Positions 1,848 to 10,338 of a stretch of 10,553 nucleotides of DNA are shown here, piece by piece. Within the stretch, counting starts at the first letter, position 1, and each line of letters begins with the position of its first letter. A program made the position numbers and the translations under genes. Below the pieces are notes generated by a model. It was given only the letters and a program-made list of their open reading frames with translations. It did not search any database and had not been told where the DNA came from. This DNA is from Myxococcaceae bacterium. GTDB taxonomy: Bacteria; Myxococcota; Myxococcia; Myxococcales; Myxococcaceae. Location of the stretch: positions 1 to 10,553 of the forward strand of contig JAGSPQ010000029.1 in assembly GCA_018262385.1 (NCBI GenBank). Reading direction: 5' to 3'.

Positions 1848-2567
1848 ATGAACCTCCGCTTTGCCCTCTCCATTCTGATCGTCGCGGCGTGCGATCCCCC
1901 GAAGCTTCCCCCCCAGCAAACGCCGCTCACCGGAACGTTGGTGCGCGATTGCTCCGGAGCTGCGCTTGCGGGGGTCGAGGTCATCGCGGCGCAGCTTCCG
2001 GTGAAATATGGCCGCCCGCTGATGAGCGACCTCCCCTACCGCGAGCTGCGCCGGGCGACCACCGACTCGGCCGGGAAGTTCGTGATCGAGTTCGATTCGT
2101 CCCAGGTCACCGGGCAGCAGAGCGTGAGCGCGGTGAGGGCGGACGGAGGGGTGGCAGTGTTGATCTCGGGGCCGCTGGGAACCGCGCCGCAGTACGACCC
2201 TCCCTTCGATCACCACGACCTGGGGCGCCTGTTGCTCGACGGCCAGGACTCCGCGGTCCGCCTCGAGCTCAAGCGGGACACCGGGTTTCCCCCTGGAAGC
2301 AGTGTGAACCTCGCTTTCTCGGGCGGCGACGAGCTGGTGGTGGAGACGATCTCGAGCCCGGACGCCGGCGTGGTCCTCGAGCGCAACTTTCGACTCATCA
2401 CCAAGGTGCGCTGGGCTCAGGACTCCGGAATTCCGGACGACGCGTTTCAACTTTTCGTGCGAGCCACGCTGGTCGATGCCGCCCAGAGAGTGCTTCAGTC
2501 GACCAGCCAGACCGCCCGCTACTCAGAGTGCCAGACCCAGCCCCAGACGATCGTGTTGCAGTTCTGA
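1848..2567 (+). CDS. Predicted lipoprotein with carboxypeptidase-regulatory-like domain
   Basis: This 239-residue protein has a very short lipoprotein signal: MNLR, a hydrophobic stretch, then the lipobox VAAC with the lipidated Cys at residue 15. Asp follows the Cys; in E. coli that favours inner-membrane retention, but the rule is unreliable in myxobacteria. Residues about 27-105 resemble the carboxypeptidase-regulatory/transthyretin-like beta-sandwich: LTGTLVRDCSGAALAGVEV, then a TDSAGKFVIEF turn-and-strand. Residues 105-239 are also beta-rich and unassigned. Cys35 and Cys228 could form a disulfide. An in-frame stop at 1824-1826 leaves ATG 1848 as the first possible start; its ribosome site is poor, and the good GGGAGG at 1816-1821 sits too far upstream. 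The next gene, also a lipoprotein, begins 47 bp downstream, so the two are probably co-transcribed. Such domains often bind or scaffold surface material; no enzyme motif is seen. Confidence 0.8.
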   Translation: MNLRFALSILIVAACDPPKLPPQQTPLTGTLVRDCSGAALAGVEVIAAQLPVKYGRPLMSDLPYRELRRATTDSAGKFVIEFDSSQVTGQQSVSAVRADGGVAVLISGPLGTAPQYDPPFDHHDLGRLLLDGQDSAVRLELKRDTGFPPGSSVNLAFSGGDELVVETISSPDAGVVLERNFRLITKVRWAQDSGIPDDAFQLFVRATLVDAAQRVLQSTSQTARYSECQTQPQTIVLQF

Positions 2568-2600: not shown

Positions 2601-2606
2601 AGAGGA
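2601..2606 (+). promoter_or_regulatory. Ribosome binding site fixing the start of the tail-tube lipoprotein
   Basis: AGAGGA lies eight bases before the ATG at 2615. The same reading frame is open back to 1823, so without this site the gene could be called some 260 codons too long. The ribosome site together with the lipoprotein signal just after 2615 settles the start. Confidence 0.7.
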
Positions 2607-2614
2607 TCTTTGAA

Positions 2615-3886
2615 ATGAAAACCATCAACGCGGTCGCGGCGCTTCTGTTCGGAGCGCTGGCGGCCTGTGTGCAGCCGACGCCGCCATGCGAGTGCCCGGA
2701 AAGGGACGCGGGCGCGCAGTGCGGCACCGACGCGGGGCCAGTCGACGCGGGGGCCGATGGGGGCTCGACCGCGCAGGACGCGCCGTACTCGCTTCGCTAC
2801 GAGCTGCAGCTGGACACCGCGGATGCGTCGGTGACGCTCGCGGCGCTCCCGACCGTCTGGCAGTTCCGCGGCGCGAGCGGCCTCGAGCCCTACGACCACG
2901 CGCTGCCCTTCGACGTGAAGGGCGGACCCGATGGCGGCCGGGCCCGCGGCGAAGGGTGGACGGAGCTGCACCTGGTGGGCTCCGACGGCCCCGGCTTCGC
3001 GGCCCTTCGCCAGTGGGGCGCGGAGCTCAGCAAGGTCGCCGTCTGCGCTGACGACGGCACGCCCTGCGACGGCGAGCAGCGCTGGAAGCAGGGGGCGCCG
3101 CCGTTCCTGCTCACGGGCCGGGTGCTGGTGCGGACCCTCGACAGCGAAGTCGTGCTCGGCAAGTACACCTTCCACGAGGCGTGGCCCGTCAGCCGGCTGG
3201 GCGTCGAGACCGGCGACGGAGGGGTCGCCCAGGTGGTGTCCCTCACCCTCGCCACCCGAATGGGCACGCTCGAGTACAACGTCGACCATCCGCTGATCGC
3301 CGGGCTGAAGAGCGCCTACCCCACCGGCCGGTTCGACCCGGCGCAGCTGGACCTGACCGGCAGCGATCTGCGCCTGGGTCGGCCGGAAGGGCTCGGTTCG
3401 ATGGAAGCCTCGCTGGACGAAGCCTGGGCCGCTCCCTCGCTGCGTGCGGTGAAGAAGGTGCACGCGCACAACGGGGACTACCTGCCAGCGCACAACTTCA
3501 AGCTCGAGATCGACGGAGTGATCTCCGGAGGCTTCAAAGAGGTCACCGGGCTCGAGCCCGAGCTGGAGGTGATCGAGTACAAGGACAGCCTCGACGCCAT
3601 CGTCCACAAGCGCCCCGGCAGGGCGAAGTTCAAGAACCTGGTCTTGAAGCGCGGCCAGGATCCGGGGCGGGTGCTGAAAGGCAACTTCAACAGCTTCCCG
3701 CGGGGCGCGAAGCCGCGAAGGTCCGGCGCGGTGATCTCCCTGGATCGCAACGGGCAGCAGGTCCTTCGCTACAACTTCTTCGAGGCCTGGCCGTGCCGGT
3801 GGAAGGCCCCGGAGCTCAATTCGAACAGCGACACCTTCATCGTCGAGGAGCTCGAGCTCGCGGTGGACTACATCGAGCGGGGCTGA
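2615..3886 (+). CDS. Lipoprotein with phage tail-tube (T4 gp19-like) domain, probably duplicated
   Basis: This 423-residue predicted lipoprotein has a hydrophobic N-terminus ending in the lipobox LAAC, with the lipidated Cys at residue 18. A Cys/Pro and Asp-Ala-Gly-rich linker (about 21-55) of the kind common in myxobacterial lipoproteins follows. Residues about 292-423 match the T4 gp19-like tail-tube family used in phage tails and extracellular contractile injection systems: NFKLEIDGVISGGFKEVTGL (294-313), EVIEYKD (318-324), KRPGRAKFKNLVLKRG (332-347), YNFFEAWPCRW (386-396) and a closing EELELAVDYIERG. Residues about 58-221 repeat the layout in weaker form: FRGASGLEP (84-92) against FKEVTGLEP (307-315), and YTFHEAWP (184-191) against YNFFEAWP (386-393). 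This suggests an ancient tandem duplication. Tail tubes normally lack signal peptides and form hexameric rings; here the fold would be lipid-anchored outside the cytoplasm. No other tail gene is nearby. The fold call is strong; the cellular role is unknown. Confidence 0.85.
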   Translation: MKTINAVAALLFGALAACVQPTPPCECPERDAGAQCGTDAGPVDAGADGGSTAQDAPYSLRYELQLDTADASVTLAALPTVWQFRGASGLEPYDHALPFDVKGGPDGGRARGEGWTELHLVGSDGPGFAALRQWGAELSKVAVCADDGTPCDGEQRWKQGAPPFLLTGRVLVRTLDSEVVLGKYTFHEAWPVSRLGVETGDGGVAQVVSLTLATRMGTLEYNVDHPLIAGLKSAYPTGRFDPAQLDLTGSDLRLGRPEGLGSMEASLDEAWAAPSLRAVKKVHAHNGDYLPAHNFKLEIDGVISGGFKEVTGLEPELEVIEYKDSLDAIVHKRPGRAKFKNLVLKRGQDPGRVLKGNFNSFPRGAKPRRSGAVISLDRNGQQVLRYNFFEAWPCRWKAPELNSNSDTFIVEELELAVDYIERG

Positions 3887-7747: not shown

Positions 7748-8197
7748 TTGGGTGGCGGCCGGTTGGCTGACCCCTCTCATGCGGCGCAGGTCGACGCCTG
7801 GCTCGAGCGGGCGGCGAAGGGCCAGCCGCCACAGGAGCTGCTTCGCCTGTTCGACGTAGCGCTCGCGGCGCTGTGGGCGCGGACCACCCCCACCCTCGGC
7901 GAGGTCACCCTCACCGCGATCGCCGAGCGGGTGACGCACAACGCCGGCGAGAAGTTCCCGTTCTTCGCGACCCTGAAGATCGGCCATACCGGCGGCCTCG
8001 GGTGCGACGAGCTGCGCGAGCGGATCACCGGCAGCCCGCGCGCCCCGTTGTTGGAAGCGATCCGGTTCGTGCTGGTGGAGTTCCTCACCGTGCTCGGCAA
8101 CCTCACCGCAGAGATTCTCACCCCCGAGCTGCACGCGGCGCTCGGCAAGGTCGCGCTGCCCCGCGGCTCCGCCGGGCGCAAGGAGACGAGGAAATGA
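7748..8197 (+). CDS. Unrecognised 149-residue protein coupled to the KaiC-like gene
   Basis: No family is recognised. The protein looks mostly helical: a charged helix HAAQVDAWLERAAKG (11-25), a helical stretch 28-45, a conserved-looking block GEVTLTAIAERVTHNAGEKF (51-70) leading into PFFATLKIG (71-79), a helix with CDELRERITG (86-95), and a hydrophobic amphipathic helix 100-122. The basic tail RKETRK is probably disordered. It lacks a thioredoxin-like pattern, so it is not an obvious KaiB, and it has no receiver, kinase or HTH motif. Its stop overlaps the next start as ATGA (8194-8197), strong evidence of shared translation and likely of a partner role. The start is unsure: no in-frame ATG exists after the stop at 7691-7693, leaving TTG at 7748 or TTG at 7763, the latter after a weak G-rich stretch. 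Third positions are strongly G/C, supporting real coding. Confidence 0.78.
   Translation: MGGGRLADPSHAAQVDAWLERAAKGQPPQELLRLFDVALAALWARTTPTLGEVTLTAIAERVTHNAGEKFPFFATLKIGHTGGLGCDELRERITGSPRAPLLEAIRFVLVEFLTVLGNLTAEILTPELHAALGKVALPRGSAGRKETRK
8181..8185 (+). promoter_or_regulatory. Ribosome binding site fixing the KaiC-like start
   Basis: AGGAG sits eight bases before the ATG at 8194. The same frame is open back to 7873, opposite the upstream gene's frame, so this site and the ATGA overlap decide the true start. Confidence 0.75.
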
Positions 8198-10338
8198 CGA
8201 AGACTCCAGACATTCCCCGCGTCCCGACCGGCGTCCCCAACCTCGACGCGATCCTCCACGGCGGGCTGCCGAAGGGCTCGGTGACGGTGGTCAGCGGCGC
8301 GCCCGGCTCGGGGAAGACGATCCTGATTCAGCAGCTGTGCTTCCACAACGCGTCGGCCCGGCGGCCGGTGCTGTTCTTCAGCACCCTCTCCGAGCCGACC
8401 GCGAAGAGCCTGCGCTACCTCAAGCAGTTCTCGTTCTTCGACCCGAAGAAGGTCGGGACCAGCGTCAAGTTCGTCGATCTCGGAGTGATGCTGCGCTCGA
8501 AGGGCCTGGCCGCGGCAGGCACGCTGATCCTGCAGCACCTCAAGGCGGTTCAGCCGGCGATCGTGGTGATCGACAGCTTCAAGGTGTTCGACGATCTCGC
8601 CAGCTCGAGAGAAGAGCTGCGCAAGTTCGGTTACGAGATCGCCGTCAACCTGATGGCCTGGGAAGCCACCGCCCTGCTGCTGGGCGAGTACGGCCCCGCC
8701 GACCACGAGACCAACCCGTTCTTCTCGATCGTCGATGGCGTCGTCCTGCTCTCGCAGCGGGAGTCGCTGGGCGAGCAGCAGCGCTTCTTCAAGATCGCCA
8801 AGATGCGGGGCACCGATCACAGCCGCGAAGAGCATCCGTTTCTGATCACCTCCGACGGGATCGAGCTGTTCGCGCCCCAGACGACGATTCGGCGGGAGCT
8901 CGAGCCCGGAGGCCTGCAGGCCCGCTGCGCGACCCACATCGACAAGCTCGACGAGGTTCTCGGCCCGGGCATCCCGCGCGGCTCGAGCCTGTTGATCGGA
9001 GGCGTCGCCGGCACCGGCAAGACCGTCCTCTCGCTCGAGTTCATCTACCGGGGGGCGCTGGCGGGCGAGAAGGGGATCCTCTTCTCGTTCGAAGAGACCG
9101 AAGAGCGGCTGCGCGCCGCCGCGACCGGCCTGGGGTGGGACCTCGATCGGCAGATCGAGCGCGGGATGATCGAGATCGTCTTCATCCCCCAGCCGGACAT
9201 CATGGTGGAAGCCCACCTGTTGATGATGCAGCGGCGGATCGAGGCGATGAAGGCCAGGCGGGTGGTGATCGACTCGGTCTCCGTCTTCCTCCACAAGGTG
9301 ACCAGCCCGCAGCTGAGCCGGGAGAAGATCTTCCACCTCTGCAGCCTCGTTCAGAACGCGCAGGCGGTCGGCTTCTTCACCACCGACATCCCCTACGGCT
9401 CGAACCAGGTCAGCCGCTTCGGGGTCGAAGAGACGGTGGTGGACGGGGTGGTGATCCTCAGCTCGGTCGAGGAAGGCCAGGAGCGCGAGCGCTACCTCGA
9501 GGTCTACAAGCTGCGAAACACCGCCCACCTCAAGGGGCGTCACAACATGGTGATCGGCAAGGGCGGCGTGGCGATCTTCCCGCGGTATGGGGAAGATCCG
9601 CTGGCGAAGTCCGGGCCCCCGCCTGCGGTAGAGGTCTCGAACCGGCGGCTGAGCTCCGGAGTCCCCGGGCTCGACGCGCTGATGAGCGGGGGGTTGCTCA
9701 AGCGCAGCGTCACCCTCGTCTCCGGGAGCGCGGGGGTGGGCAAGACGACCCTGGGAGTGCAGTTCCTGATCGAGGGCGCCCGGCGCAAGGAGCGCGGGCT
9801 CTACGTCACCCTCGAGGAAGGGCCCGACCAGCTGTTCGCCAGCGCCGCGGCGTTGGGGTTGCCGCTGCGGGCGATGGTGAAGAAGGGGCTGATCCAGGTG
9901 CTCTACGTCTCTCGCGAGCACCTGCGCGCCGGCCAGTTCCTCACCGTGCTCGCCGATCGGCTCACCGCGATGAAGGCCTCGAGGGTGGTGCTCGACGCGG
10001 CGACCCAGATGCTGACCGAGCACGTGACCCACGACGAGTTCAACCACGTGCTCTACAAGGTGGTGGTCCGGTTCAAGACGCTCGGCATCACCAGCGTGCT
10101 CACCCTCGAGGCGCCCTCGCTGGTCTCGACCGAGCGGGTGACCGAGCTGGGCCTGTCGCCGATCGCCGACAACCTGCTGATGCTCCGCTACAAGGACACG
10201 GAGAACCGGCTGTCGCCCACGCTGACGATCGTGAAGACCCGCGGCTCGGAGCACGATCGGGGCACCCACCCGCTCAGCGTCGCCCGGGGCGGCCTGCGGG
10301 TCGGGCAGCCGAAGCCGGTGGCGGGGAAGCGCCGGTGA
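8194..10338 (+). CDS. Triple-module KaiC-like RecA-fold ATPase
   Basis: The 714-residue protein has three consecutive KaiC modules where cyanobacterial KaiC (about 519 residues) has two. Walker A motifs are GAPGSGKT (35-42), GVAGTGKT (270-277) and GSAGVGKT (511-518). Walker B strands are VVIDS (124-128), VVIDS (357-361) and VVLDA (598-602). Each module ends in the KaiC hairpin motif: KMRGTDH (203-209), KLRNTAH (439-445), KTRGSEH (681-687). The paired catalytic glutamates are present in module 2 (Glu300-Glu301) and module 3 (Glu541-Glu542), but module 1 has Ser66-Glu67. Module 2 is CI-like (SRFGVEETVVDGVVIL). In module 3 the segment aligned with the Ser-Thr autophosphorylation pair reads LSPIADN, so only one hydroxyl residue is kept. 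There is no kaiA or kaiB here, and the next gene starts a GAF-like sensor, so ATP-driven signalling is more likely than a clock. It is probably cytoplasmic and a hexamer, as in the family. Confidence 0.94.
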   Translation: MTKTPDIPRVPTGVPNLDAILHGGLPKGSVTVVSGAPGSGKTILIQQLCFHNASARRPVLFFSTLSEPTAKSLRYLKQFSFFDPKKVGTSVKFVDLGVMLRSKGLAAAGTLILQHLKAVQPAIVVIDSFKVFDDLASSREELRKFGYEIAVNLMAWEATALLLGEYGPADHETNPFFSIVDGVVLLSQRESLGEQQRFFKIAKMRGTDHSREEHPFLITSDGIELFAPQTTIRRELEPGGLQARCATHIDKLDEVLGPGIPRGSSLLIGGVAGTGKTVLSLEFIYRGALAGEKGILFSFEETEERLRAAATGLGWDLDRQIERGMIEIVFIPQPDIMVEAHLLMMQRRIEAMKARRVVIDSVSVFLHKVTSPQLSREKIFHLCSLVQNAQAVGFFTTDIPYGSNQVSRFGVEETVVDGVVILSSVEEGQERERYLEVYKLRNTAHLKGRHNMVIGKGGVAIFPRYGEDPLAKSGPPPAVEVSNRRLSSGVPGLDALMSGGLLKRSVTLVSGSAGVGKTTLGVQFLIEGARRKERGLYVTLEEGPDQLFASAAALGLPLRAMVKKGLIQVLYVSREHLRAGQFLTVLADRLTAMKASRVVLDAATQMLTEHVTHDEFNHVLYKVVVRFKTLGITSVLTLEAPSLVSTERVTELGLSPIADNLLMLRYKDTENRLSPTLTIVKTRGSEHDRGTHPLSVARGGLRVGQPKPVAGKRR

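Follow-up and report, generated by a model that had tools for sequence, protein, structure and literature searches.

What does a tail-tube domain do when it stands behind a lipoprotein-type export signal? Proteins of the tail-tube type are familiar components of phages, tailocins, eCIS and T6SS, and the locus described here encodes one in another guise. The window (the whole stretch of DNA analysed, 10,553 nucleotides from a Myxococcaceae bacterium) contains the gene for a protein, here the window protein or P0001, in which two tube domains, D1 and D2, follow a predicted signal peptide and an Ala/Asp/Gly/Pro-rich tether (Table 1).

Table 1. Features of the tube gene and its upstream neighbour (window coordinates).
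Feature	Position	Strand	Basis
Upstream gene, second apparent lipoprotein (VAAC by eye)	1848..2567	+	47 bases 5' of ATG
Shine-Dalgarno-like AGAGGA	2601..2606	+	Sequence read directly; spacing 8 bases to ATG
Gene for 423-aa protein with two tail-tube domains, predicted exported	2615..3886	+	ORF and domain matches
Signal peptide, residues 1-17	2615..2665	+	One Lys, hydrophobic stretch, LAA preceding Cys18
Cys18, predicted lipid-bearing residue, in lipobox LAAC (residues 15-18)	2666..2668	+	Sequence and pattern match
Ala/Asp/Gly/Pro-rich tether, residues 19-56	2669..2782	+	Sequence; predicted-fold pLDDT about 26-43
D1, first tail-tube domain, residues 57-228, divergent	2783..3298	+	hhalign, lone-domain fold, PDB matches
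Cys144 and Cys151 codons	3044..3067	+	Alignment; pair invariant in 10 aligned D1 rows
Inter-domain linker, residues 229-284	3299..3466	+	No gp19 match (hhalign score 7.5)
D2, second tail-tube domain, residues 292-421	3488..3877	+	PF06841 match

The gene, its export signal and the two tube domains

The window protein begins MKTINAVAALLFGALAAC, and its lipobox lies behind a hydrophobic stretch, as predicted for a lipoprotein. The gene has strong codon bias, with GC contents of 0.70, 0.48 and 0.91 at the first, second and third codon positions, and the third-position value is similar in D1 (0.94) and D2 (0.93). A frameshift or misassembly was considered for an odd helix in D2, but when the three frames were compared by eye the given frame fitted the flanking conserved residues best, and we therefore accept it as real.

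D2 is identified from its Pfam and TIGR02241 scores and from phmmer hits on solved tubes, not from fold prediction: the full-length model, built from a nine-row alignment, has a mean pLDDT of 45.6 with D2 and the linkers below 50, and we used the D1 part alone. D2 matches Phage_T4_gp19 (PF06841) at 99.2 bits against a cut-off of 28.2, over positions 2-134 of the 134 in the profile, and TIGR02241 at 82.9 bits (cut-off 62.4). Among solved inner tubes the top phmmer match is All3324 of the Anabaena system (7b5h; E 1.8e-10), followed at lower rank by Algoriphagus, Pvc1 and Afp1. The NCBIfam equivalogs CIS1 and CIS5 are not reached (44.7 of 220 and 60.1 of 260 bits respectively), and P0061, a machine-associated relative discussed below, is likewise far under both cut-offs. 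The KR.G segment is retained in D2 among many residues common to cytoplasmic relatives, and the best-kept columns in exported relatives include the K, R and G of this segment, an RKS.S motif and the AWP strand end. D2 is nonetheless an unusual tube subunit, since its helix carries Asn where 91% of the exported rows carry Trp.

PF06841 has no match in residues 57-228, and its only stretch in the window protein is that in D2. The case for D1 comes from profile comparison and from a predicted fold. An alignment of D1 (nine rows) compared by hhalign with a separate gp19 alignment (12 rows) gives a probability of 94.9% and a score of 53.4; the best of 200 column-shuffles scores 17.8 and the reversed alignment 9.4. 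The signal depends on the family alignment, because the window D1 alone, without its relatives, scores just 18.3, the six closest rows give 89.6% over 55 columns, and D1 against D2 within the same proteins gives 82.8% over just 24 columns. Modelled by itself, D1 has a pLDDT of 81.5 and a pTM of 0.80, and the PDB matches listed for this predicted fold are nearly all Hcp or tail-tube proteins. The relative P0027 has a weak gp19 match in D1 itself (17.0 bits, under the Pfam cut-off of 28.2). By fold and in-register profile taken together, D1 belongs with the tail-tube/Hcp fold, and these comparisons support a D1 that is predicted to share the fold of tail tubes while having diverged in sequence. 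The D1 loop that matches the KR.G region is Gly-rich by eye, and Cys144 and Cys151 probably form a disulfide.

Much of this layout had been proposed in a preliminary description made from the letters and open reading frames. Its reading of a LAAC box with Cys18 agrees with the pattern match, and the D-, A- and G-rich linker followed by a full-length gp19 domain is borne out by the PF06841 match. It had further suggested a tandem duplication with a degenerate first copy from shared landmarks; hhalign recovers these in the same register, pairing FRGASGLEP with FKEISGLET and YTFHEAWP with HNFFEAWP between the D1 and gp19 alignments, and the duplication is supported by this comparison, by the weak P0027 match and by the D1 model, in which the first-domain residues adopt the tube fold that it had named as a test.

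Two further observations concern relatives of D1. P0011 and P0027 each have a DUF7450 match, just under the cut-off, on the N-terminal side of D1, and P0027 ends past D1 without a second gp19 domain, so it is perhaps a frameshifted or shortened copy.

Relatives and the wider group of exported tube proteins

Eight proteins besides the window protein have both domains (P0003-P0009 and P0011), with Myxococcota (P0007) and Byssovorax (P0011) among the named sources. The relative P0003 is 52% identical to the window protein over 98% of its length; in seven of the eight the aligned share of the window protein is 57-98%, and in P0009 it is 32%. Export was predicted by a home-made rule that scores hydrophobicity ahead of the domain, with domain starts derived from profiles. 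Eight of the nine two-domain proteins, the window protein counted, pass this rule. P0009 fails it; this sequence begins with V, is possibly cut at its start, and was counted as exported by hand assignment for an LGGC box seen by eye. Clean lipoboxes are confined to P0001, P0008 and P0009, and a lipid anchor is therefore not conserved across the set. The preliminary description had expected a lipobox in two-domain homologues: an export signal is, as predicted from sequence, common to these proteins, and a lipid anchor is not. A profile of D1-D2 matches 85 of 195 genomes of the same phylum at E 1e-5; among the matches listed, with at most nine candidates scored per genome, D1 is reached in the window's own genome only.

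Scanning genomes of named organisms with the D1-D2 alignment also identified, in a Candidatus Peregrinibacteria genome (locus L045, genome G196), a gp19 protein that begins with a signal peptide and, in the Cyanobacteria MAG RYN_339 (L046, G197), one with a lipobox; the Peregrinibacteria genome contains a second exported copy (L055). A protein search from L045 yields 334 relatives at E 1e-20, and 57 of the 120 listed have an export signal by the N-terminal hydrophobicity rule, a fraction that is biased because the query is itself exported; a cruder earlier rule gave 41 of 121. For the window protein the corresponding count is 18 of 24 proteins listed, including itself and P0009 as assigned by hand. 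Such gp19 proteins, with Sec-type or lipobox N-termini, come from Myxococcota, Peregrinibacteria, Sericytochromatia and Symbiobacteriaceae, the last three represented by P0028, P0087 and P0085 respectively. A lipobox pattern is present in 18 of the 76 exported proteins, with P0031, P0035 and P0094 doubtful by eye, and as judged from these sequences lipoboxes are not general among exported gp19 proteins. The preliminary description had held that the gp19 family is normally not secreted, and this needs amending: in one gp19 group the majority of the members sampled carry predicted export signals, the sample having been drawn with exported queries.

The exported members vary in architecture. Most have one tube domain; P0010, P0013 and P0099 have two gp19 domains in an arrangement other than that of the window protein, and in P0012, P0014 and P0016-P0018 the gp19 tube domain is accompanied by DUF5667 and by Kazal-type inhibitor modules. 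P0020 (462 aa) has a signal peptide followed by gp19 and CIS_tube (PF19266) domains, placing two injection-system parts in an apparently exported protein. We also note the 849-residue P0026, which combines DUF5667 and gp19 and by eye has an HEFVH zinc-protease-like motif and a cupredoxin-like C-terminus.

Outside this sample, gp19 itself has an uneven distribution. In the class to which the Cyanobacteria MAG belongs, one genome of 18 has it, and in the sample of its phylum 38 of 386 do, whether exported or not; in the Peregrinibacteria phylum sample G196 is the only one of 379 genomes with gp19 over the cut-off. The settings of the two Peregrinibacteria copies differ: the gene at L045 (9119-9664, +) is preceded by a Cu/Zn superoxide dismutase gene, and in L055 (565-1365 and 1495-2064, both -) the gp19 gene is followed directly, in the same orientation, by a gene for what looks like a secreted metallopeptidase, whose Reprolysin matches are under the cut-off. 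A contig labelled Nitrosarchaeum (L047; the label is that of an unchecked bin) contains a gp19-type ORF at 2049-2471 (+) that matches PF06841 at 144.5 bits and a second, recognised by eye, at 2947-3450 (-); gp25 has no match in its 1.8-Mb genome.

A tree was computed for 162 gp19 domains, of which exported proteins supply 79 and cytoplasmic ones 83; export labels were fixed beforehand, as they were for the second tree described below. It took in 10 of 30 cyanobacterial loci (L056-L085) and seven Myxococcota loci that were assumed to be eCIS; P0105, P0116 and P0130 were left out as truncated or fused sequences, and so were the P0004 D1 piece and all domain pieces covering fewer than 75 profile positions. 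One group of 99 rows contains 78 of the 79 exported rows together with 21 cytoplasmic ones (support 94, and 99 for an inner set of 92 rows). The remaining 63 rows are 62 cytoplasmic proteins and P0133, whose exported label is probably false and due to an over-long start. The export label changes at least 10 times on the tree, compared with a mean of 54 in shuffles, none of 500 of which is as low, and the supported branches by themselves force three changes. The tree has 144 columns, and 71 of its 159 inner branches are left open; a program warning concerned the small number of columns and the meeting of long branches among outside rows. The second tree, of 96 rows, was drawn from the group seen in the first, with seven long or odd rows taken out and four outside rows added. 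On it a single origin of export, with all exported rows held together, is rejected (p-AU 3.9e-6), and a single lineage of the two-domain proteins is not (p-AU 0.124). Repeated gain or loss of export within one tube lineage fits these sequence trees. Extra cysteines were considered as a mark of export, but two or more Cys in the gp19 domain are not commoner in exported rows (26 of 78) than elsewhere (4 of 21 cytoplasmic rows in the group and 28 of 63 other rows).

Genomic setting and the search for an injection machine

A functional CIS inner tube is expected to be cytoplasmic, to lack an export signal and to share its genome with sheath and baseplate genes. The window protein carries a predicted export signal, and neither the PF04984 sheath nor PF04965 gp25 was found in its own genome (G000), which has a single gp19 match in 5.57 Mb. 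With 1057 contigs and 79% completeness, the assembly may have missed a sheath cluster, either unassembled or too divergent for the profiles. The outcome favours the preliminary description, which had named a nearby sheath or baseplate cluster as the finding that would make the protein an ordinary tail component; with one gp19 match, no sheath and no gp25 in this genome, an ordinary tail component of a cluster just outside the window is not our leading reading. The same two profiles were not found in G196 (1.7 Mb) or G197, so that none of the three genomes examined for exported members shows a visible machine. A different picture is seen in G195, which encodes the cytoplasmic tube P0061 of the same gp19 group: it has three sheath matches, two of them on the tube's contig, and near the tube gene there are a sheath match and a weak hub match under the cut-off. 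Cytoplasmic members of the group can therefore be machine parts.

A phage origin of the window protein was rejected, as P0001 has no match in 50,697 phage records (tblastn, E 0.001) or in viral contigs. Distant gp19 relatives that belong to the wider group are encoded on two viral contigs (34% and 26%), and by eye these ORFs have no export signal. When P0028 was compared with plasmid records, 110 matched, the best place in each being under 60% identity.

The genes around the tube gene yield no functional lead. Topoisomerase III and GH130 genes flank it on either side on the other strand, and glycosyltransferase and KaiC-type genes are also among the neighbours. The upstream lipoprotein gene is a possible operon partner; its product has a weak CarboxypepD_reg match (15.8 bits, cut-off 32.3), but as a conserved partner it was rejected, being present in one of 96 family genomes, the window's own. 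The KaiC-type protein (7873-10338, +) matches PF06745 at 430 bits and contains three stretches of the KaiC ATPase, one more than the KaiC of the clock.

Interpretation and comparison with known systems

The reading that we prefer, with a probability of roughly 0.45, is that a CIS tube subunit was duplicated, gained a lipoprotein signal and was exapted as an exported, tethered, oligomerising scaffold. The export signal, tether, two tube domains and exported relatives on which it builds are recognised by sequence and prediction, as is the lack of sheath and gp25 matches in its own genome. Sec would export the window protein, and lipid on Cys18 would tie it to the envelope, most likely to the outer membrane, a location that we infer from the signal sequences. 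The two linked tube domains would then oligomerise, and three copies could close a pseudo-six-fold ring, for which T5 pb6 offers a precedent, with three tethers holding the ring over the membrane. A single ring or short stack would serve as a multivalent surface scaffold, and nothing would be injected. We take a single ring or short stack to be likelier than a long tube because D2 keeps the KR.G segment, the matching loop of D1 is Gly-rich and D1 probably has a disulfide. As we read the alignment, KR.G would correspond to the ring-to-ring loop of tubes. According to PMC8718954, the strand 2-3 loop is the largest ring-to-ring contact in all but two of the described systems, the inner sheet makes the ring in major tail proteins, and T5 pb6, whose tube domain is duplicated, builds its ring from three chains instead of six, helped by high salt and low pH. 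Added modules in exported members (DUF5667, Kazal and CIS_tube) support the scaffold reading, being of a kind that a scaffold might carry. A bolder extension, which we put forward tentatively and regard as somewhat doubtful, is that tube subunits left CIS more than once and became widespread Sec-exported, tethered ring scaffolds displaying modules such as protease inhibitors, the window protein being a lipid-anchored three-chain pseudo-hexamer.

Besides envelope rings, the preliminary description had proposed reuse of the fold for adhesion. The tube fold might in that case have become a simple beta-sandwich for binding or adhesion, with D1 and D2 displayed at the surface as monomers and no ring formed. 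The strong divergence of D1, the altered D2 helix and the fusion of exported relatives to unrelated modules all point this way, as do P0014 and P0016, which by eye are shortened at the KR.G stretch, suggesting that ring stacking is dispensable there. Yet D2 of the window protein keeps KR.G and many residues of the cytoplasmic type, more than a free beta-sandwich seems to need, and we consider monomeric display doubtful. The preliminary description had also raised docking or capping of a real injection system. In this form the protein would serve an eCIS or T6SS of its own cell as a dock, cap or assembly part at the envelope, and the genes of that system would lie in sequence missing from the assembly; the 79% completeness, gp19 matches in 27 of the 60 genomes searched as relatives (the window's own counted) and the joining of gp19 to CIS_tube in the exported P0020 would suit it. 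It is disfavoured because no such system was found, either in this genome or in G196 and G197, and the topoisomerase III, GH130, glycosyltransferase and KaiC-type neighbours also speak against it, so that we judge it unlikely.

A protective role is less probable again: rings at the surface could act as decoys or shields that bind or block foreign tubes, spikes or cargo of injection systems or phages. Such a protein would be expected at the membrane, where the signal and tether appear to place this one, and close in sequence to true tubes, as is the 67% identity to the cytoplasmic P0043 over 144 columns; the scatter over distant phyla also recalls that of defence genes. No defence gene, however, is among the identified neighbours. 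Incoming injection tubes are driven by contraction, and free rings are not known to stop them. Least credible is a decaying remnant of an injection tube that acquired its signal by chance. The degenerate D1 sequence and the absence of sheath and gp25 matches from this genome are what decay might leave, but the frame is intact with strong codon bias in both domains, P0003 keeps the same architecture, and the Cys pair of D1 is invariant.

If the exported group does exist apart from the rest of the machine, it represents an exaptation of the tube fold, in which Sec delivers a ring or conduit capable of self-assembly to the envelope surface or beyond it. Annotation would be corrected, as sources name some exported gp19 proteins phage tail protein, and surface-display engineers would have a natural scaffold. 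A tube subunit so placed might assemble in the periplasm or at the cell surface, which raises the question of what it holds. Tube proteins and duplicated tube domains are already known. Among the open-access papers listed, judged by title and the opening of the abstract, none treats Sec-exported tail-tube proteins, and neither the exported, lipid-anchored tandem nor the multi-phylum exported group was met in them.

Among known systems, the inner tubes of CIS (Afp1/Pvc1 type; PF06841, TIGR02241) resemble D2 by score and D1 by fold. The window protein differs from them in its predicted export signal and lipobox, its duplication, the lack of sheath and gp25 matches in its own genome and its scores below CIS1 and CIS5. 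Hcp leaves the cell via the T6SS and is not known to have a signal peptide, and neither it nor C-terminally extended Hcp resembles the window protein in this respect, which has a Sec/lipobox-type signal. T5 pb6 is not known to have a signal peptide either. Like the window protein, pb6 has two tube domains in one chain, but it belongs to a phage tail and carries an Ig-like domain at its C-terminus, and the two are compared here by layout. The signal peptide of eCIS cargo is, according to PMC12210884, a disordered loading leader, and as described there it differs from the export signals of exported gp19 proteins. Close to the window protein as well are the other exported gp19 proteins, such as P0028, P0087, P0010 and P0016, which fall in the same tree group and share N-terminal export signals, and from which the window protein is set apart since most of them have one tube domain and some a different two-domain arrangement or DUF5667 and Kazal modules.
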